This document shows, piece after piece, positions 44,861-63,020 of a stretch of 64,000 nucleotides of DNA. The DNA is from Verrucomicrobiia bacterium (GTDB lineage: Bacteria; Verrucomicrobiota; Verrucomicrobiia; Palsa-1439), in the NCBI GenBank assembly GCA_022072455.1, contig JAJVHY010000026.1, positions 1 through 64,000 of the forward strand, read 5' to 3'. The position numbers were made by a program, and so were the translations under genes. The stretch's first letter is position 1, and every line of letters begins with the position of its first letter. The notes under the pieces are model-generated. The model made no database searches and had not been told where the DNA came from. It saw only the letters and a list, made by a program, of their open reading frames with translations.

Positions 44861-45853
44861 TTATTCATCCGCAGGTGGCTGGGCTGCGAGGGCTTCGATT
44901 TCACCTTCGGTCAGGGCCCGTTTGTAAAACCGCACCTCACTGACCAAGCCGCGAAAACCACCGTCATCGCCAGCCGCGTTCGCGCCGCCGATGTAAAGAT
45001 CGCCGGTATGATCCAAGCGGCCGGATACCGCGGCTTTCTCCTGGAGTTTGCCGTCGAGATAAATCCGCGCTTCGCCATCGGCTTGCGAATAGGTGGCGGC
45101 AATGTGCTGCCAGCGGTTGCCGGCGAATTCGGGAAAATGCAAGTTCGTCACCCGGCCGCCCGCGCAGGGATTTTCCTGGGCCAGTACGAAATTGGAGCTT
45201 CCGCCTCCACGAATGAAAAAGCCCCCGCGGCAATTGTCGGCTTTGCGCAGCAAGGTACCCCAACCGTTACCGGCGGCTTGACCGGGTTGGCCTTTGATCC
45301 AAGCACTGAAGCTGAGTGCCTCGGACGGCTCCAGTGCGGCCGCGCGGGGGATGAGGAGGTAACTGGCTGTGTTGCCGGCGAAACGGACGCCAACGGTTTC
45401 CAAGTCGGCGCCCACCAGTTTGCCGTGCAGCTTTTGCCCGCTGTGGTCTTCGACATCGCCACGGAAAGGGTAATAGGCGATCAACCCGTCCTGCACGCTC
45501 GCCGCACCGCCCGGCAAGGCGACGGTGATGGTGGTGATCTTATCCCAGGGGAGTGTTACCGGGCCGAAAACCGTCGCCAAGTCGACCGGTGCGTCCGATA
45601 TGGCAGACTGAATCTTGTCACCGTTTTGCAGTGTGATGAGAACGTCGTCCCGACTGGCGGTGAACGTGACCGTTCGGATTTTGTCGAGCGGCACCTCCAA
45701 TTTGCCGAGGGTTTCGGACTGCACCAGCAACCGCTTCCGGGCGGGGGTCCCGAGTAGTCGCGAGCCGTCGGTGAGTTGGATGGTGAGCCGTGGAGTGGTT
45801 TCAGCGATAGCGGATGTTCCGAGCAACAACGCGCTGAGGAAGTAAGTTCGCAT
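44861..45853 (-). CDS. Secreted LamG/concanavalin-like domain protein
   Basis: The 330-residue product has a signal peptide (MRTYFLSALLLGTSAIAE). An N-terminal beta region (residues 20-110: RLTIQLTDGSRLLGTPARK) resembles repeated Sm-like/DUF sequence motifs of PVC secreted proteins. A LamG-type jelly-roll follows (GLIAYYPFRGDVEDHSG, SFSAWIKG, RWQHIAATYSQADGEARIYL, GLVSEVRFYKRALTEGEIE). LamG domains bind carbohydrates or proteins; no catalytic site is seen. It converges on aroF. Confidence 0.82.
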   Translation of the reverse strand: MRTYFLSALLLGTSAIAETTPRLTIQLTDGSRLLGTPARKRLLVQSETLGKLEVPLDKIRTVTFTASRDDVLITLQNGDKIQSAISDAPVDLATVFGPVTLPWDKITTITVALPGGAASVQDGLIAYYPFRGDVEDHSGQKLHGKLVGADLETVGVRFAGNTASYLLIPRAAALEPSEALSFSAWIKGQPGQAAGNGWGTLLRKADNCRGGFFIRGGGSSNFVLAQENPCAGGRVTNLHFPEFAGNRWQHIAATYSQADGEARIYLDGKLQEKAAVSGRLDHTGDLYIGGANAAGDDGGFRGLVSEVRFYKRALTEGEIEALAAQPPADE

Positions 45854-48956: not shown

Positions 48957-49309
48957 CGCCCGCCCTGCGAACGCAGGTACTCCGCGAATGGCAGCCGTGG
49001 TCGGCCCCACCGGCGCTGACCAAACCCGCGCCCGCGCTCGACCAACTCGTTCCCGGCGTGATGAAACGTCTCGGCATCGAACAGCGGCTCTACGAAGCGC
49101 AAGTTTTCCACCAATGGTCACAAATCGTCGGCACCGAAGTTGCCAAGCACGCGCAGCCGGTCAGTCTCACCAATAAGCTGTTGCGAGTCTCCATTGATCA
49201 TCCCGTCTGGCATCAACAACTTTTACCTCTCAAGCCGCTCATTCTCCAAAAAGTTCGCGACCGCATCGGCAAAGCTGCCGTCCGCGACATTGTCTTCCGC
49301 ATCGGCTAA
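48953..49309 (+). CDS. DUF721/DciA-like protein
   Basis: The 118-residue protein matches DUF721: LVPGVMKRLGIEQRLYEAQV, WSQIVGTEVAKHAQPVSL and LLRVSIDHPVWHQQLLPLK, then VRDIVFRIG. DciA proteins of this family load the replicative helicase DnaB in most bacteria that lack DnaC. The GTG start overlaps the ferredoxin stop by 4 bases. The next gene begins at its last base. Confidence 0.8.
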   Translation: MTPALRTQVLREWQPWSAPPALTKPAPALDQLVPGVMKRLGIEQRLYEAQVFHQWSQIVGTEVAKHAQPVSLTNKLLRVSIDHPVWHQQLLPLKPLILQKVRDRIGKAAVRDIVFRIG

Positions 49310-50265
49310 TGCGCCGCTTCGCATTTTTCCTTCTCTGCGCCTGCCCGGTCTTCGCGCTTGACGTTCCTTTCATCGCCCAAAAGCCCGGTCAATGCGGTCC
49401 CGCTGCCCTCGCGATGCTCGCCAACTTCCACGGTCACAAAATCACGCAAGAAGAAATCGCCGCTGCTATCTACTTGCCTGATATCCATGGGACCCTGACC
49501 ACGGACCTCGCTGACTACGCCAAAAAGTTCGGTCTCTGGGTCCGCCAATACCGCGGCACCCAAGCCGACCTCCGCCAAAAAATCGCCGCCGGCATCCCGC
49601 TGCTCGTCCTCGGAAAATTCGGCGACCGGCCCCATTACTTCCTCGTCCTCGACTTCGACGATTTTGCCAAAACCGTCACCGTCCACTCCGACCAACGCGC
49701 CCGCCACGCCATGACCCAGGAACAATTCTGGCGCGTCTGGGACCGCGCCGACCGCTGGACACTCCTCGTCTGCCCCCCCGGCATAGCCACTTGGTCACTC
49801 TCGGCCGCCGAACACAACGACCTCGGCGTCTTCCTTGAACGCTTGGGAAAATTCCCCGCCGCCGCCGGCAATTACCGCCGCGCCGCCGAACTCGCCCCAA
49901 CCAATTCCTATTATTTGATGAACCTTGGCAACGCGTTGATGAAACAAGAACTACCTGCTGAAGCCGCCACCGCCTACCGGCAAGCCCTCCAAGTCGAACC
50001 CGACAACGCCGACGCCATGAACAATCTCGCCCACGCCTATCTCACCTTGAACGCCAACCTCGACGAAGCCGTCGCGCTTTGTGAACGCGCCGTCAAACTC
50101 CGGCCGGGTCACCGGGCGTACTACCTCGACACCCTCGGTCACATTCTGCTAAAACAAGGCCGGGTCGCCGAAGCCGGTAAAACATTTGAAAAAGCCCTTG
50201 CAGCCACGACCGACCGGCAAAGCGCGTTGCGCGAAAAAATCCGGCAAGCCATGCCCAAACAATGA
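49309..50265 (+). CDS. C39-like cysteine peptidase with TPR repeats
   Basis: The 318-residue protein has a short signal (MRRFAFFLLCACPVFA), a C39-like papain fold (residues 20-150) with QCGPAALAML (catalytic Cys), a HYFLVLD His and a downstream Asp. TPR repeats follow at about 165-300 (NDLGVFLERLGKFPAAAGNY, MNLGNALMKQELPAEAATAY, MNNLAHAYLTL). C39 peptidases often trim bacteriocin leaders, but such C39-TPR proteins occur without bacteriocins. The substrate is unknown. Its stop overlaps the deaminase start by 4 bases. Confidence 0.8.
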   Translation: MRRFAFFLLCACPVFALDVPFIAQKPGQCGPAALAMLANFHGHKITQEEIAAAIYLPDIHGTLTTDLADYAKKFGLWVRQYRGTQADLRQKIAAGIPLLVLGKFGDRPHYFLVLDFDDFAKTVTVHSDQRARHAMTQEQFWRVWDRADRWTLLVCPPGIATWSLSAAEHNDLGVFLERLGKFPAAAGNYRRAAELAPTNSYYLMNLGNALMKQELPAEAATAYRQALQVEPDNADAMNNLAHAYLTLNANLDEAVALCERAVKLRPGHRAYYLDTLGHILLKQGRVAEAGKTFEKALAATTDRQSALREKIRQAMPKQ

Positions 50266-50774: not shown

Positions 50775-53700
50775 ATGCGCAATTTCCTCATGGCTGGGGC
50801 GCTCTTGCTTTCGGTGAGCGGTGCCTTTGCCTTCCATGAACCAGCCACTCCGCCACTGCCCAATTTCGATCTTCGCGTGGCGCCGAATGAACGCCGGCAG
50901 ATCTACACCCCGACCGGCTTTCAGCCCGGCCCTCCGGTAGATCCGCTGGCCCTCGGCGACGCCCGCTTGAAATGCGATTACACCAGTCCGCACAGCCAGA
51001 TGCGGACGAAGGTGTGGCAGCAGGTGGTGGATGGCATTCCGGTCTTCGGTGGCGTGCTGGTGATGCACACCACGAAGCATGGCGAGTTGGTGGGGCAGCA
51101 AAGCCGGTTCGTCCCGAATCCCGGCAACCTCCAAGCCAAACCCAAGTTGCCGGCAGCGCAGGCCGTGGTCGTTGCGACGAACAACGTCGGTGCAGCCATC
51201 AGTGAGCCGACGACCCGCTTGGTTTGGTTGCCGGCTGATCAACTGACGTTGTGCTGGGAAGTGATCGTGACCGGTCGCGAGACATACCGGCTGGTGGTGG
51301 ACGCGACCACGGGCAAGATATGGGTCCGGCAATGCCTGACCGAATATTTCACGGACGCGACTTACCGGGTGTTCACCGCCGACAGTCCCGCGCCGTTCTC
51401 ACCCGGCCACACGACACCCTCGACCAACCAGCCGGCCACCGTGGCGCGCAGTCTGGTGACACTGAGCGCGTTGTCATCGAACGCGTCGCCGAACGGCTGG
51501 ATCAACGACGGCGACAACACCACGCTCGGCAACAATGTGGACGCGCACCTCGACCGCAACGCCAACGACTCCGCCGATCCCGGCTCGCGTCCACCGGGCA
51601 ACCCGGCGCGGACGTTTGATTTCGCGGTCAATCTCGCCGCTGCGCCGGTCACTTACACCAACGCGAGCGTCGTGTGCGTGTTCTACTGGTGCAATTGGAT
51701 GCACGACAAACTTTACAACCTCGGCTTCACCGAAGCCGCCGGCAATTTCCAGACCGACAACTTCGGCCGGGGTGGTCTCAGTGATGACGCGGTGCAGGCA
51801 GATGTGCAGGATGGTGGCGGTTTCAACAACGCCAACTTCACCACGCCGCTCGATGGGACAGCGCCGCGGATGCAGATGTTTTTGTGGAACAGCATGACTC
51901 CGAACCGCGACGGCGCGTTCGACGCCGAGATCATCCTCCACGAATACACGCACGGCCTGAGCAACCGGCGCGTCGGCGGCGGCGTGGGCATCACACAACC
52001 GCAGAGTCGCGGCATGGGTGAAGGCTGGTCGGATTTCTTCGCGCTCGCGTTGTTGAGTGAACCTGCCGACAACGTGGACGGCAACTACGCGTTCGCGGCC
52101 TACGTCACTCAGAATTATTACTGGGGCATCCGCCGGTACCCCTATACGACCGACCTCAACAAAAACCCGCTCACGTTCAAAGACATTGACCTCCTGCAAA
52201 TCGAGCATCATCCCGGCATTCCGAAGAATCCCGGCGTCGGCGTCGCGGCTGCCGACGTGCACCGGCAAGGCGAAGTCTGGGCCAGCGCGTTGTGGGAGGC
52301 GCGCGCCAATCTGATTCGCAAACACGGCGCGGCAACCGGCAACCAGTTGATGCTGCAACTCGTCTGCGATGCGATGAGCATCACGCCCGCCAATCCCACA
52401 TTCGTCGAAGGCCGCGACGCAATCCTGCAAGCCGACTTTGTGCTGACCGGCGGCGCGAACGCGAAAGAACTCTGGGCTGGTTTCGCAAAACGCGGACTGG
52501 GTTGGAGCGCAGTGGCGTCGGCCAGTTCGACCGTGCTTGGCGTGGTCGAGACGTTCGACGTGCCGGATGATTTGCAGATCACGCCAGTGACCGGCGGCGC
52601 ACTCAACTACGCACCCGCCGATATGGCGTTCGTGCCGGGCTGCACGAACTACACGCTCTTGAATACCGGCAGCGCGACGCTGAACTGGACGGCGTCCAAA
52701 TCACAGACGTGGCTCGAGGTCACGCCGACCAGCGGAACGTTGACGGCCGGCGCGACGACGACGGTGGCTGTCTGCATCAATGCCGGTGCGAATACGTTGC
52801 CGGTGGGGTTCTATTATGACTCGGTGATCTTCACCAACACGACCACCGGCGTGCCGCAATACCGGGGCGCGCAGTTGTGCGTGCAGGCGTTTGCCGGGTT
52901 GCCGTTCACGGAAGGGTTTGAGAGCGGCGCGTTCAGTAGTTACTGGACGATTACCGGCTCATACCAATTCCGGACCATCCTCACCAACGCGTACTCGCCC
53001 CACGGCGGCAGCCGGCAGCTGACGATGGACACGAGTATCAACGCCTTGGCAGCGCGTAATGAAGCCACACTCGGCATCAACCTCGCCGGCTACACGAACG
53101 TCGTGTTGAGTTTCTGGGCGAAAAGTTTTGGGGACGAGTCAAACGGCCCACCTACCGCGCCGTTCGTCAACCACGCGGATTTCGACGGCGTCGCCATCAG
53201 CAACGACGGCGCGACGTGGTGGGAAATCCAGAGCTTGCGCGGATTGACGACCGGCGTGTGGACGCAATTCGTGGTCAATCTCAACAACGTGCCGGTTGGC
53301 TACAGCGGGACCTGGCGCATCCGGTTCAATCAGTACGACAATTTCGGGATTACCGGCGCAGATCCGGACGGGATCGCGATTGATGACATCAGCATTACCG
53401 GCGCGCTGTTCGACACCGATGGCGATGGGTTGCCGGATTGGTGGGAGCAGACCTATTTCATGCATCCGACCAATGCTGTGGCCGGGGAGGACGGCGATGG
53501 CGACGGGTTGAGCAATCTGGAGGAATTCCTGGCCGGCACTGTACCGACCAGTGCTGCCAGCGCATTTCGTATCACCAGTGTGGCCGGCTTCACGGTCACG
53601 TGGAGTTGTGGCGAGAACCGAACGTACCAAGTGCTTTACGCGCCTGCGCCCGGCGGTCCGTGGTTGGAGGATTTGCCGGCTTCGGAAGTGACCACCACGT

Positions 53701-53786
53701 CCGGCGAAACCATCAAGAGCTACACCGACCCAACCGCCAGTGCTGCGGACCGGCGGTTCTATAAAATCAGGCTGGTCGTGCCCTGA
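50775..53786 (+). CDS. Secreted M36 (fungalysin) metallopeptidase with C-terminal calcium-repeat tail
   Basis: The 1,003-residue protein has a signal peptide (MRNFLMAGALLLSVSGAFAF), a FTP/PepSY-like propeptide (about 40-190) and an M36 catalytic domain with HEYTH (zinc ligands His389 and His393, catalytic Glu390) and downstream GEGWSDFFAL with the third ligand Glu. After it come a BACON/Ig-like domain (about 605-705) and a jelly-roll-like region. The tail GLPDWWEQTYFMHPTN then DGDGDGLSNLEEFLAGT is a thrombospondin-3-like calcium repeat common in secreted Verrucomicrobia proteins. It likely degrades protein outside the cell. Confidence 0.9.
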   Translation: MRNFLMAGALLLSVSGAFAFHEPATPPLPNFDLRVAPNERRQIYTPTGFQPGPPVDPLALGDARLKCDYTSPHSQMRTKVWQQVVDGIPVFGGVLVMHTTKHGELVGQQSRFVPNPGNLQAKPKLPAAQAVVVATNNVGAAISEPTTRLVWLPADQLTLCWEVIVTGRETYRLVVDATTGKIWVRQCLTEYFTDATYRVFTADSPAPFSPGHTTPSTNQPATVARSLVTLSALSSNASPNGWINDGDNTTLGNNVDAHLDRNANDSADPGSRPPGNPARTFDFAVNLAAAPVTYTNASVVCVFYWCNWMHDKLYNLGFTEAAGNFQTDNFGRGGLSDDAVQADVQDGGGFNNANFTTPLDGTAPRMQMFLWNSMTPNRDGAFDAEIILHEYTHGLSNRRVGGGVGITQPQSRGMGEGWSDFFALALLSEPADNVDGNYAFAAYVTQNYYWGIRRYPYTTDLNKNPLTFKDIDLLQIEHHPGIPKNPGVGVAAADVHRQGEVWASALWEARANLIRKHGAATGNQLMLQLVCDAMSITPANPTFVEGRDAILQADFVLTGGANAKELWAGFAKRGLGWSAVASASSTVLGVVETFDVPDDLQITPVTGGALNYAPADMAFVPGCTNYTLLNTGSATLNWTASKSQTWLEVTPTSGTLTAGATTTVAVCINAGANTLPVGFYYDSVIFTNTTTGVPQYRGAQLCVQAFAGLPFTEGFESGAFSSYWTITGSYQFRTILTNAYSPHGGSRQLTMDTSINALAARNEATLGINLAGYTNVVLSFWAKSFGDESNGPPTAPFVNHADFDGVAISNDGATWWEIQSLRGLTTGVWTQFVVNLNNVPVGYSGTWRIRFNQYDNFGITGADPDGIAIDDISITGALFDTDGDGLPDWWEQTYFMHPTNAVAGEDGDGDGLSNLEEFLAGTVPTSAASAFRITSVAGFTVTWSCGENRTYQVLYAPAPGGPWLEDLPASEVTTTSGETIKSYTDPTASAADRRFYKIRLVVP

Positions 53787-57551: not shown

Positions 57552-59381
57552 TTATAGGCCGAGGTTGTCGCCGAGATTGGGTTTGCTGTCGGCGTCCACA
57601 ATGATTTCCCGAACGGTCTTGCCGGCGGGGATCATGGGGAGGACGTGCTCGGTGTAGGGGACGATGACGTCGAGGACGTACGGTTCTTTGGAGTCGAGCA
57701 TGCGCTGCATGGCGGCGCGGAGTTGACTCTTTTTGAAGACACGCTCTGCGGGGACGTTGAAGCCTTTGGATATGGCCACGAAATCTGGATAGACTTTATG
57801 CGGGTGTTCGGGGTCGCCGAGGTACGTGTGGCCGCGGTTCGAGTTGTAGAACTTGTCTTCCCACTGGACGACCATACCGAGGTGCTGGTTATTGAGGACG
57901 AGGGCTTTGGCGGCGATATGTTCGATGTGGGCGGTGCCGAGTTCCTGGATGTTCATGACGAACGAGCCGTCGCCATCGATGTCCACGACCTCTTTGTTGG
58001 GGAAGGCGAGCTTGGCGCCGAGGGCGGCGGGGTAGCCGTAGCCCATCGAGCCGAGGCCGGCCGAGGTGAGGAACGTGCGCGGGTGTTTGATTTTGAAATA
58101 TTGCGCGGCCCACATCTGGTGTTGGCCGACGCCGGTGGTGATGATTGCATCGCCCTTGGTGAGTTCGTCGAGCAACTCGATGGCGTATTGCGGCATGATG
58201 ATTTCGTCCGTCTTGCCGTGGAGGAATTCGCGGACGTATTCGCTCCGCAAGACTTCGTCGTTCACGCGATACCGGAAGGGGAACTTGGCCTTCCATTCGT
58301 TGATCTGGGTGTGCCAGGCTTTGAACGGTTTGCCTTTGACGACTTTGTTCAACTGCTGGAGCGCGTACTTGATGTCGGAGACGATGGGCAGGTGCGCGAC
58401 TTTGTTTTTGTTGATCTCGCTGGGGTCAACATCGATGTGAACGATGGTGCCGTGCTTGGCAAATTCGCTGACTTTGCCAGTGACGCGGTCGTCGAAGCGG
58501 ACGCCGAAAGCGAGGAGCAAGTCGGATTTATCCACGGCGTAGTTGGCGGTGACGGTGCCGTGCATCCCAAGCCATTGCATCGAGAGTTTGTGGTCGGCGG
58601 GAATCGCACCGATGCCCATGAGGGTCGTGGTGACCGGGATGTTGGTTTTTTCGGCGAACTCGATGAGGTCGGCGCTGGCGTTGGCGGAGATGATGCCGCC
58701 GCCGCAGTAAATGACCGGTCGTTCGCTCTTTTCGATGAGGCCGGCAATCTCGTTGACAGCGATTTCGCTGATGCGTTTGTCGGCGTTATAGCCGCGGAAG
58801 TTGAGTTTTTCTGGGAAGACCGGCTTGCAGTGGCCTTGCTGAACGCTCTTCGGAATGTCAATCCAGACCGGCCCCGGCCGGCCTGTGGTGGCGATGTGGA
58901 AGGCTTCTTTGATGACCTGCGGGATGTCTTCGACGTTCAGGATGAGGTAGCTGTGTTTGACGATGGGCACGGAGAGGCCGAAGACATCGGTTTCTTGGAA
59001 GGCGCCTTTGCCAATCATGTGTGACGGAACTTGTCCGGTAATGACGACAAGCGGAATGGAATCGAGATAAGCGTCGGCGACGCCGGTAACGAGGTTGGTG
59101 GCGCCGGGGCCGCTGGTGGCCATGGCGACGCCGGCTTTGCCGGTGGCGCGGGCGTAACCTTCGGCAGCGAAAACGCCGCCTTGTTCATGCCGGGGGAGGA
59201 CGGTGCGAATTTGTTTGGAGCGGGTGAGCGATTGGTGCAGTTCCATGCTCGCGCCGCCGGGATAAGCGAAGACCAGTTCCACGCCCTCGCGTTCGAGGCA
59301 GCGGACGACAAGGTCGGCACCCCGCATCGGGCTGGTTTCGGCGATTGGCTTGGGTTTGATTGTGGTCTGGATCTTACTCAT
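57552..59381 (-). CDS. ilvB: Acetolactate synthase large subunit
   Basis: The 609-residue ThDP enzyme makes acetolactate or acetohydroxybutyrate for valine, leucine and isoleucine. Seen: [20 protein letters not shown] with the catalytic Glu region, [22 protein letters not shown] (FAD contact) and the ThDP motif [16 protein letters not shown]...[14 protein letters not shown]. The length is normal for the biosynthetic (AHAS) type. No small subunit ilvN follows. The promoter lies so close to the ATG that the mRNA is probably leaderless. Confidence 0.95.
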
Positions 59382-59486: not shown

Positions 59487-60476
59487 CTAGAACTGCTGGA
59501 TCGTGGAGATGTTGAACGAGCCTTGAATCACTTCCACAATGTTGGTCGCGACGGGCGACGGTGTCGTTTGCGACGCGGAGAACGTGAACGTGCCGCTGGC
59601 CTTTTGCTGCGCGAGATTGAAGGTCGCGATGTACACGGTGCCCGAGAGGTTGCTCGAATAGGTTTTGCCTCCGGCAATGTCAATGACCCCGGTGCCAGCG
59701 CCAGCCGGATATGGACCGGGGCCGACCACGTTGACGGCGGAAATGTTGACGGCTTTCTGCCCGTTCAAGGCCGGCCCGTTCACGGTGAATTGGCCGGTGA
59801 TGTTCACATAGACGCCGGCGGCAGCCGGGGCATTATGTTGAACGCCGTTGATGCGGCATTGCAGGCCGTTCCCGCCACCATCGCCATTGCTGTCGTTTGC
59901 CTTGTCAATGGTCTTAATGGCGCTGAGCAGGCTTTTCAGCGAGCTGCTCAAGGCTTTGGCTGCGAGCGCGAAGTCTGGGGAGGTGCCGGCTTGGTTCAGG
60001 AGATCCTGTGCGGTGTCATGCGCGGTTTGCGCTGAAGTTTTGGCGCTGCCTTCCGGCAGGGCGTTGATTTCGGTTTGGATTTCGTCGAGTTCGGTTTGGA
60101 TCGTGGCGACGAGGTTGCTGAGGCTGCCTTCGAGGAGATCGGAGAGATCGTTGACCACGAGCAGTTCGGTCACGGCTGCTTCGAGCACGAAGTCATCCGG
60201 AAACGCTTTGAGGAGGGTCTTCGAGATTTTGCCCAAGGCTTTGATGTCGCCGGACAAGGTGGTGGACTTGTCAATGGCGGCGATGACCTTGACGCAGGTC
60301 TTGCCTAATTTCTGTTCCACCTTGTCCACGCTGCCGGTCAAGCTGTTGGCGCGGGCGAGTAGTTCGGCGCGCAAGGCGTCGAAGCTGCTGGTCGCGGCCG
60401 CGTGGGCGGCGGACGAGGTTACGAGAATGGCGGTCGTTACGACAGCCGTCAAATGACGAACATTCCTTAGTTGCAT
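59487..60476 (-). CDS. Secreted helical paralogue 1 with extra C-terminal domain, unknown function
   Basis: The 330-residue product starts at MQLRNVRHLTAVVTTAILVT (signal peptide cleaved after SAAHAA). The N-terminal 170 residues are helical and share with the next two genes SVDKVEQKLGK, AAIDKSTTLSGDIK and LLKAFPDDF. A C-terminal beta domain (about 200-330: GLQCRINGVQHNAPAAAG ... GTFTFSASQTT) resembles DUF6252-like lipoprotein domains. It is last of the three and lies directly ahead of the terminator. The function is unknown. Confidence 0.7.
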   Translation of the reverse strand: MQLRNVRHLTAVVTTAILVTSSAAHAAATSSFDALRAELLARANSLTGSVDKVEQKLGKTCVKVIAAIDKSTTLSGDIKALGKISKTLLKAFPDDFVLEAAVTELLVVNDLSDLLEGSLSNLVATIQTELDEIQTEINALPEGSAKTSAQTAHDTAQDLLNQAGTSPDFALAAKALSSSLKSLLSAIKTIDKANDSNGDGGGNGLQCRINGVQHNAPAAAGVYVNITGQFTVNGPALNGQKAVNISAVNVVGPGPYPAGAGTGVIDIAGGKTYSSNLSGTVYIATFNLAQQKASGTFTFSASQTTPSPVATNIVEVIQGSFNISTIQQF

Positions 60477-60584
60477 AGGCTTTCTGCGGATGACTCCTTT
60501 GGTTTTGGTTTGTTTAACCGCGACTGCGCCCGCGGTAGGTTGCGGGAACAAGGCGCGGGTTCGACGAAATGGTAACGGCCGCGA

Positions 60585-61178
60585 TTAGTTCAATTCGATT
60601 TTATCGATGATCTTTTGGGCTTTCGCGGCGGACTTGAGACAGGCGCCGAGAAGCTTCGAAGCTTCGCTCCAAGTCGTGTCGCCGAACGCAGCTTCCAGCG
60701 CATTGGCGGCATCATTGAGCGCGGCTTGAGCCTGGTCGCGATCTTTGCTTTCGGGGAGGGAATCAATGCTCAACTGGAGGTCTTGCAAGATGATGTCGAG
60801 TTGGTCGGCAATGCTGAAATAGCCGTTGACGAGCAGGGTGCGAACATTGTTGGAAAACACCAGTCCGCCGACGATGGTAGGCGCGAATTCATCGGGAAAG
60901 GTCTTTTGCAACAATTTGGCGAGTTTGGCGCTGGCCTTGATGTCGCCCGCGAGTGTGAGGGATTTGTCAATAATCACGATCCCTTTGGTGCAGGCCTTCG
61001 CTAGTTTCTGCTCCGTCTTGTCCACGCTGTTGCTCAAAACTCCGAGCCGATCAGAGAGTTCGGTGCGCAGATCAGTGAAGTTGCTGATAAGCGCGGCGTG
61101 GGATGCCGGGACAGTTCCGAGCAGGGTTATCATGGCGCCGGTCAGAAATGACAAAATACGAATGCGCTGCGACTTCAT
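60585..61178 (-). CDS. Secreted helical paralogue 2, unknown function
   Basis: The 197-residue protein has a signal peptide (FLTGAMITLLGTVPASHAA) and an all-helical mature part with the shared pattern NSVDKTEQKLAKACTKGIVI, IDKSLTLAGDIKAS, LLQKTFPDEF, SLPESKDRDQAQAALNDAA and a final LLGACLKSAAKAQKIIDKI. AGGAGAACTAT precedes the ATG. It sits 25 bases behind paralogue 3. No known family is recognised. Confidence 0.75.
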   Translation of the reverse strand: MKSQRIRILSFLTGAMITLLGTVPASHAALISNFTDLRTELSDRLGVLSNSVDKTEQKLAKACTKGIVIIDKSLTLAGDIKASAKLAKLLQKTFPDEFAPTIVGGLVFSNNVRTLLVNGYFSIADQLDIILQDLQLSIDSLPESKDRDQAQAALNDAANALEAAFGDTTWSEASKLLGACLKSAAKAQKIIDKIELN

Positions 61179-61203
61179 ATAGTTCTCCTGAATTGCCGGC
61201 TGA

Positions 61204-61764
61204 TTAAACGGGCATCGCTTTGGCGATAATTTTCAGGGCCTTCTCGATGTTTTTGAGGCAAGCGCTGAATCGCTTCGTGGTTTCCTGGTAGTCCTCCTGC
61301 TGGAAGAAGTAGGCCGCGGCCTCCAACTCATCCAGGGCATCCTCGTAAGCCGCTTCGGCCTTCTCACGATCTTTGCCGACCGGCAACATGTTGACCAAGA
61401 CCTCCAAGTCGTCGAGTCGGTCACTAAGCGATTCGCCGATGTTGTTGTAGCCTTCCAGCATCAGGGCGTAGAGGTTGTTCGAGACGGCGGCCTCGAATTC
61501 GTCGGGGAACGCTTTGGCCAAAAGTTTGCCCAACTTGAAGCTGATCTTGATGTCGTCAGCCAAATCGCTGACGTCATTGATCATGGCGATGCCTTTGACC
61601 ACTGCTTTGTCTTGTTTCTGCTCATCTTTGTCTTCGCTCCCACCCAACACAGCATGACGCAGGACCAACTCATCGCGCACCGCGAAAAAGTTGCTGGGGA
61701 TACCGGCGGTGGCGGTGCCGACGGCGAAAAAGATGATTGGTAGCAGGCTCACGAGTTTCTTCAT
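61204..61764 (-). CDS. Secreted helical paralogue 3, unknown function
   Basis: The 186-residue protein has a signal peptide (MKKLVSLLPIIFFAVGTATA), then the shared helical module: SEDKDEQKQDKAVVKGIAMI, DIKISFKLGKLLAKAFPDEF, LPVGKDREKAEAAYEDALDE and CLKNIEKALKIIAKAM. GGGAGAAAT precedes the ATG. First gene of the operon. The strong FPDEF and DIK motifs define the family together with the next two genes. Confidence 0.75.
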   Translation of the reverse strand: MKKLVSLLPIIFFAVGTATAGIPSNFFAVRDELVLRHAVLGGSEDKDEQKQDKAVVKGIAMINDVSDLADDIKISFKLGKLLAKAFPDEFEAAVSNNLYALMLEGYNNIGESLSDRLDDLEVLVNMLPVGKDREKAEAAYEDALDELEAAAYFFQQEDYQETTKRFSACLKNIEKALKIIAKAMPV

Positions 61765-61886: not shown

Positions 61887-63020
61887 ATGGTGGGAAATTT
61901 CCAGATTGAAGCGACCGATCGCACCACGCGCGCCCGTGCCGGTAAGCTGCAAACGGCGCACGGCGTGATCGAAACGCCGGTCTTCATGCCGGTCGGGACG
62001 CAGGGGACGGTCAAATGCATGGCGCCGGGCGAACTGCGCCAGTTGCCGGCGCAGATCATTCTGGGCAATACCTATCATCTGATGATTCGCCCGGGCCTCG
62101 AACTCATCCAAAAGGCCGGGGGATTGCACAAATTCATGAATTGGGCCGGCCCGATCCTGACCGACAGCGGCGGGTTTCAGGTTTTCTCGCTGGCGAAGCT
62201 CCGCAAGATCAGCGAGCGCGGCGTTGAATTCCAATCACATGTGGACGGCCAGACGCTATTCCTCGGGCCGGTCGAAGCGATGGAAGCGCAGACAATTTTA
62301 GGCAGCGACATTGCGATGGCATTCGACGAATGCGCCCCGTGGCCGTGCGACCGAGAATACGCTTGCAGAAGCGTAGACCTGACAATACAGTGGGCGGCTC
62401 GCTGCCGGGAAAAGGGTCTCGGCTCGCGACAATTGCTCTTTGGAATCGTGCAGGGCAGCCTGTTTGCCGACCTGCGGGAACGGTGTGCGAAAGAACTCGT
62501 TGCCTTGGACTTCCCCGGCTACGCCATCGGCGGCGTGAGCGTCGGCGAACCCGAACCGGAGATGTTGCAACAAGTTGATGCCGCCGTACCGCACTTGCCG
62601 GCGGAAAAACCCCGGTATGTGATGGGGGTCGGAACGCTGCCGCAACTGGTCCAGATGGTCGCGCGGGGGATTGACATGTTTGATTGTGTCTTGCCGACAC
62701 GCGCGGCGCGTCATGGGAAGGTGTTCACCAATACCGGCTCGTTTTCGATCCGGGCGGCCGCTTGCCGCGAAGATTTTGGACCGTTGGAAGCCGGGTGCGA
62801 GTGTTACGCGTGCCGGGAATTTAGCCGGGCGTACCTCCGGCATTTGATTTGGGCGAATGAGATTTTGGGGCTGCGGTTGTTGACGTGGCACAATTTGCAT
62901 GTGTTTCTGAACCTGTTGCGCCGGGCGCGGCAGGCGATCGGAGCGGGGGAGTTTGGGGAATTTCAGCGCGAGTTTATCGCGCAGTACACGGAGAAAGCTG
63001 ATTATGATGAACGCATTTAG
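61887..63020 (+). CDS. tgt: tRNA-guanine transglycosylase
   Basis: The 377-residue enzyme exchanges guanine for preQ1 at position 34 of QU(N) tRNAs. Seen: GVIETPVFMPVGTQGTVK, LTDSGGFQVFSL (Asp), FGIVQG, GGVSVGEP, DMFDCVLPTRAARHG (catalytic Asp) and the zinc site CECYACREFSRAYLRHL. Its length is standard. The tgt-yajC-secD order is widespread in bacteria. It works in the same pathway as the queC gene at 35269. Confidence 0.95.
   Translation: MVGNFQIEATDRTTRARAGKLQTAHGVIETPVFMPVGTQGTVKCMAPGELRQLPAQIILGNTYHLMIRPGLELIQKAGGLHKFMNWAGPILTDSGGFQVFSLAKLRKISERGVEFQSHVDGQTLFLGPVEAMEAQTILGSDIAMAFDECAPWPCDREYACRSVDLTIQWAARCREKGLGSRQLLFGIVQGSLFADLRERCAKELVALDFPGYAIGGVSVGEPEPEMLQQVDAAVPHLPAEKPRYVMGVGTLPQLVQMVARGIDMFDCVLPTRAARHGKVFTNTGSFSIRAAACREDFGPLEAGCECYACREFSRAYLRHLIWANEILGLRLLTWHNLHVFLNLLRRARQAIGAGEFGEFQREFIAQYTEKADYDERI

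Follow-up and report, generated by a model that had tools for sequence, protein, structure and literature searches.

Among described proteins, one experimental lead for the locus reported here is Riean_0653 of Riemerella, a hypothetical protein needed for hemolysis: transposon mutants lose hemolysis, complementation restores it, and the recombinant protein is not itself hemolytic (PMC7881567). Model NF052634 is named after this protein. The other comparison is DUF6252 (PF19765), a known but uncharacterised kind of domain for which a search of the literature library used, with this name and related phrases, found no paper. Both bear on the C-terminal beta domain of one of three related genes (A, B and C) in the window, as we call the whole stretch of 64,000 nucleotides that was analysed, from a Verrucomicrobiia bacterium. 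We conclude that the trio is real, constrained, rare and partly unclassified.

Gene layout and transcription signals

According to the ORF list of the window, A, B and C are three consecutive head-to-tail genes on the minus strand, flanked by ilvB (57552-59381, minus strand) and tgt (61887-63020, plus strand), with the following features:

61204..61764, minus strand: gene A (P0001), first of the trio; 186 aa; predicted exported six-helix-type protein
60585..61178, minus strand: gene B (P0002); 197 aa; predicted exported six-helix-type protein
59487..60476, minus strand: gene C (P0003); 329 aa from ATG; predicted exported, helical module plus C-terminal beta domain
59892..60398, minus strand: helical module of gene C (residues 27-195); AlphaFold2, pLDDT about 75-96 in most blocks
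59490..59885, minus strand: C-terminal beta domain of gene C; distant DUF6252 / Riean_0653-type, with matches to PF19765 and NF052634
59433..59465, minus strand: intrinsic terminator downstream of gene C; 14-bp stem, loop of 5, TTTTGTTTTC tail

The frame of gene C extends in the ORF list to 60551 from an alternative TTG start. The intergenic gaps measure 25 bp (A-B) and 108 bp (B-C), and transcription of A-B-C as an operon is plausible from this layout. The preliminary description had assigned ribosome sites to the genes, which holds well for A (GGGAG) and B (AGGAG) but less so for C, where a weaker AGGAG lies about 17 nt upstream of the ATG. The clear terminator that it reported, a 14-bp stem with a T tail after gene C, is indeed the strongest among the five terminator-like sites detected. 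A search for a sigma-70-like promoter found none. Judged by eye, the N-termini of A, B and C resemble Sec signal peptides, and in none of the three does the signal peptide end in a lipobox Cys, as it would in a bacterial lipoprotein; the Cys residues are located at position 169 in A, 63 and 180 in B, and 61 and 207 in C.

The shared helical module

The three proteins have in common a helical module of ~165 residues, over which pairwise identity is 38-47%, A and B being the closest pair (47%). BLASTP aligned A with B at 45% identity (1e-34), B with C at 42% (1e-24) and A with C at 40% (3e-22), and the motifs DKxEQK, DIK, L/K..FPD[ED]F, LPxxxDR..A and CLK...KA.KII occur in the trio, with two deviations in C (LPEGSAK in place of the KDR version and SLK...AIKTI in place of CLK...KA.KII). 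These results confirm the initial view of three consecutive signal-peptide genes with a common helical module. Moreover, conservation follows the order 2 > 1 > 3 by codon position in all three gene pairs, a pattern that supports A, B and C as genuine, constrained proteins.

AlphaFold2, supplied with three sequences only, predicted the mature module as six helices, with high confidence in the models of both B and C. The model of B (mean pLDDT 84) is a helical chain with helices at residues 2-48 (merged with the signal peptide), 54-72, 76-93, 99-139, 145-164 and 170-196, such that its mature module comprises three shorter helices, one long helix and then two more. We also considered an internal duplication of the module, but the score of helices 1-3 against helices 4-6 was reached by 237/1000, 97/1000 and 336/1000 shuffles, and although hhalign placed the half-profiles in register, it did so with a probability of just 4.9%; we do not claim such a repeat. 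What had been proposed as a secreted, repeat-expanded family is thus a small secreted paralogous family whose expansion amounts to three genes in one genome, the internal repeat being unsupported.

Comparisons with curated collections gave no credible match for the module. Foldseek searches against the PDB with the B or C model returned nothing at E<=0.001, and a module profile found nothing significant among PDB sequences (best E=0.12). In Pfam no model matched the module above its cut-off; the best were COG6_N (E=0.003), WXG100 (E=0.07-0.1) and BBH37 (E=0.14), all far under the cut-off and typical low-specificity helical matches. NCBIfam yielded no match for A or B, and the best PHROGs match of the module (0.0027), to a dehydrogenase, was taken as spurious. 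By these sequence comparisons, the module represents an undescribed, predicted exported family that has no credible curated model in Pfam, NCBIfam or PHROGs.

The beta domain and a two-domain relative

The trimmed beta domain of C matched PF19765 along almost the entire profile (positions 6-120 of 124) with E=5.5e-4 and 20.6 bits, below the gathering cut-off of 27.2, and NF052634 with E=8.2e-5 and 23.6 bits, against a cut-off of 57. AlphaFold2 predicted strands here, but at pLDDT <50 this part of the model is unreliable. On the strength of the profile matches, we classify it as a distant DUF6252 / Riean_0653-type domain. Accordingly, the earlier statement that no known family is recognised applies to the module, for which no curated match exceeds its threshold, but not to the beta domain of C. 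A and B do not have this domain, and the DUF6252 profile excludes the N-terminal helical module.

The same combination recurs in a distant relative. In a class sample of 384 genomes, a profile built from the modules only (A2) found, with E=0.01 per genome, a protein of genome G628 (L012:1411-2358, G628:C24), which belongs to another family of the same class as the trio. This protein consists of a signal peptide-like start, the module and then a DUF6252 domain. Its module scored 21.8 bits against the A2 profile, whereas none of 5000 shuffles scored as high (best 16.4), and the Smith-Waterman scores of C and of B against it were each reached by 0/2000 shuffles. The comparison with A was not significant (485/2000 shuffles), and the link therefore runs via B and C. 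Its DUF6252 domain, likewise matched along almost all of the profile, exceeded the PF19765 cut-off of 27.2 (E=6.6e-8, 33.3 bits), and this gene was the only one to do so in the class sample (1/384 genomes). With NF052634 it scored 38.5 bits (2.1e-9), which, like the score of C, is below 57, making both non-members by the curators' rule. Although the E-value is unconvincing over 384 genomes, we accept the G628 protein as a relative on the basis of the shuffles, the adjoining signal peptide-like start and the DUF6252 domain. The absence of homologues outside this genome, which the preliminary description had named as grounds against a new family, is thus narrowly avoided by one good homologue.

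The order and kinds of parts in the G628 protein match those of C, with about 28% identity over the module. The two beta domains align poorly with each other (132/2000 shuffles reach the pairwise score); since that of C matches the same models as that of the G628 protein, we regard the two proteins as sharing one architecture. By contrast, the G628 gene is present in a single copy in a neighbourhood different from that of the trio, and its predicted mature product is basic (pI 8.9 versus about 5).

This relative bears on the history of the family. C had been described as having gained a beta domain, but the only outside homologue already consists of module and DUF6252, as C does, and loss in A/B is therefore more parsimonious. 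Probably, then, the two-domain form came first: in this lineage, tandem duplication of an ancestral gene encoding both parts would have given rise to the trio, and the A/B branch would have lost the beta domain. With a single outgroup, this direction is a preference rather than proof. Proteins of this type place DUF6252 in a new architectural context. The module defines an orphan domain family, narrow yet open to testing, that none of the curated libraries searched contains and that has a conserved two-domain form; its patchy distribution limits how widely it matters. As genome content the trio is ordinary, and its interest as a new domain family is modest.

Distribution and possible functions

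Beyond G628, iterated profile searches of the class and of G628's order revealed no further convincing member, and no further copies of the module were found in the trio's own genome. Partial matches within frames of 463-1262 residues in six genomes (G280, G076, G136, G511, G089 and G531; E 0.006-0.04) were treated as chance, and a match in another genome (L009, G133) was rejected as such because the protein appeared by eye to be an outer-membrane-efflux-type coiled protein. Scans of genome contigs with two short peptide patterns also gave no relative; as the G628 protein lacks these patterns, the scans say little on distant relatives.

We consider it reasonably probable, judging from sequence features, that A, B and C form a small family of non-enzymatic proteins, exported by Sec and either kept in the periplasm or released, in which the module has a binding or structural role. 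The residues found unchanged in all four modules (A, B, C and G628), namely R, E, D, K, S, L, I, F, P and A, are for the most part charged or of a structural kind (R, E, D, K, L, P, A); no catalytic dyad or metal site is obvious among them. The four modules share no conserved His, Cys or Met, and the G628 protein has no Cys at all; this composition favours a non-enzymatic binding or structural extracytoplasmic role over metal or heme carriage. The mature module would fold as a six-helix bundle that may bind a partner protein, a glycan or the envelope surface, or act as a structural spacer, and the beta domain of C could provide a further unit for binding or anchoring. A, B and C would be made together, and at the cell envelope each probably acts as a variant of the other two. 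That the module is a new exported domain family, ancestrally fused to DUF6252, sporadic in the class, and amplified and split here into a multi-subunit envelope assembly is a more tentative proposal, which we hold to be possible but doubtful.

The distribution raises the prospect that these orphan genes are selfish or came in by lateral transfer, serve no role in the cell and are a transient insertion between ilvB and tgt. The trio was absent from all 10 other genomes of its family (0/10), which are also the whole sample of its order. In G009, the one relative with ilvB and tgt on a single contig, the gap is occupied by other genes, for an ACT-type, an XdhC-like and a MobA/MocA-like protein (L034 2982-6019; named by eye), which indicates that the gap is a variable site and that the trio's place appears specific to its lineage. 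In the remaining relatives with tgt, ilvB was not found near it within the stretch examined; G001, of the same genus, gave no tgt match, though its completeness is 99%. Against an orphan origin, the three diverged copies have kept their signal peptides and open frames, with codon position 2 the most conserved, GC by codon position in the trio is similar to that of neighbouring genes, and plasmid, phage and viral collections contained no match to the module. We regard such an origin as unlikely.

Alternatively, the proteins might be envelope factors that help a different exported protein to assemble or act, by analogy with Riean_0653 in Riemerella hemolysis. The NF052634 match of C points in this direction, but it lies so far under the cut-off that Riean_0653 is no more than a lead, the helical module does not match NF052634, and a common fold does not carry function over; this role seems improbable to us. 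We give equally little credence to periplasmic metal, heme or lipid carriers on a helical bundle in the style of EfeO, cytochrome b562 or PsbQ-type proteins, since, although helical bundles frequently hold cofactors and the module weakly resembles PsbQ (oxygen-evolving enhancer 3; non-significant, E=0.29) as well as, in Foldseek, designed heme bundles and EfeO (E 0.14-1.1), every structural match is non-significant, the Cys sites differ among A, B and C, and the missing His, Cys and Met conservation argues against heme or soft-metal binding, including the metal binding suggested in the preliminary description.

Elsewhere in the window, we noted a fungalysin-type (M36) metallopeptidase with a BACON domain (50775-53786, plus strand, 1003 aa), a protein with a C39-peptidase-like domain followed by TPR repeats (49309-50265, plus strand, 318 aa) and a laminin-G-like/concanavalin A-type domain protein (44861-45853, minus strand).
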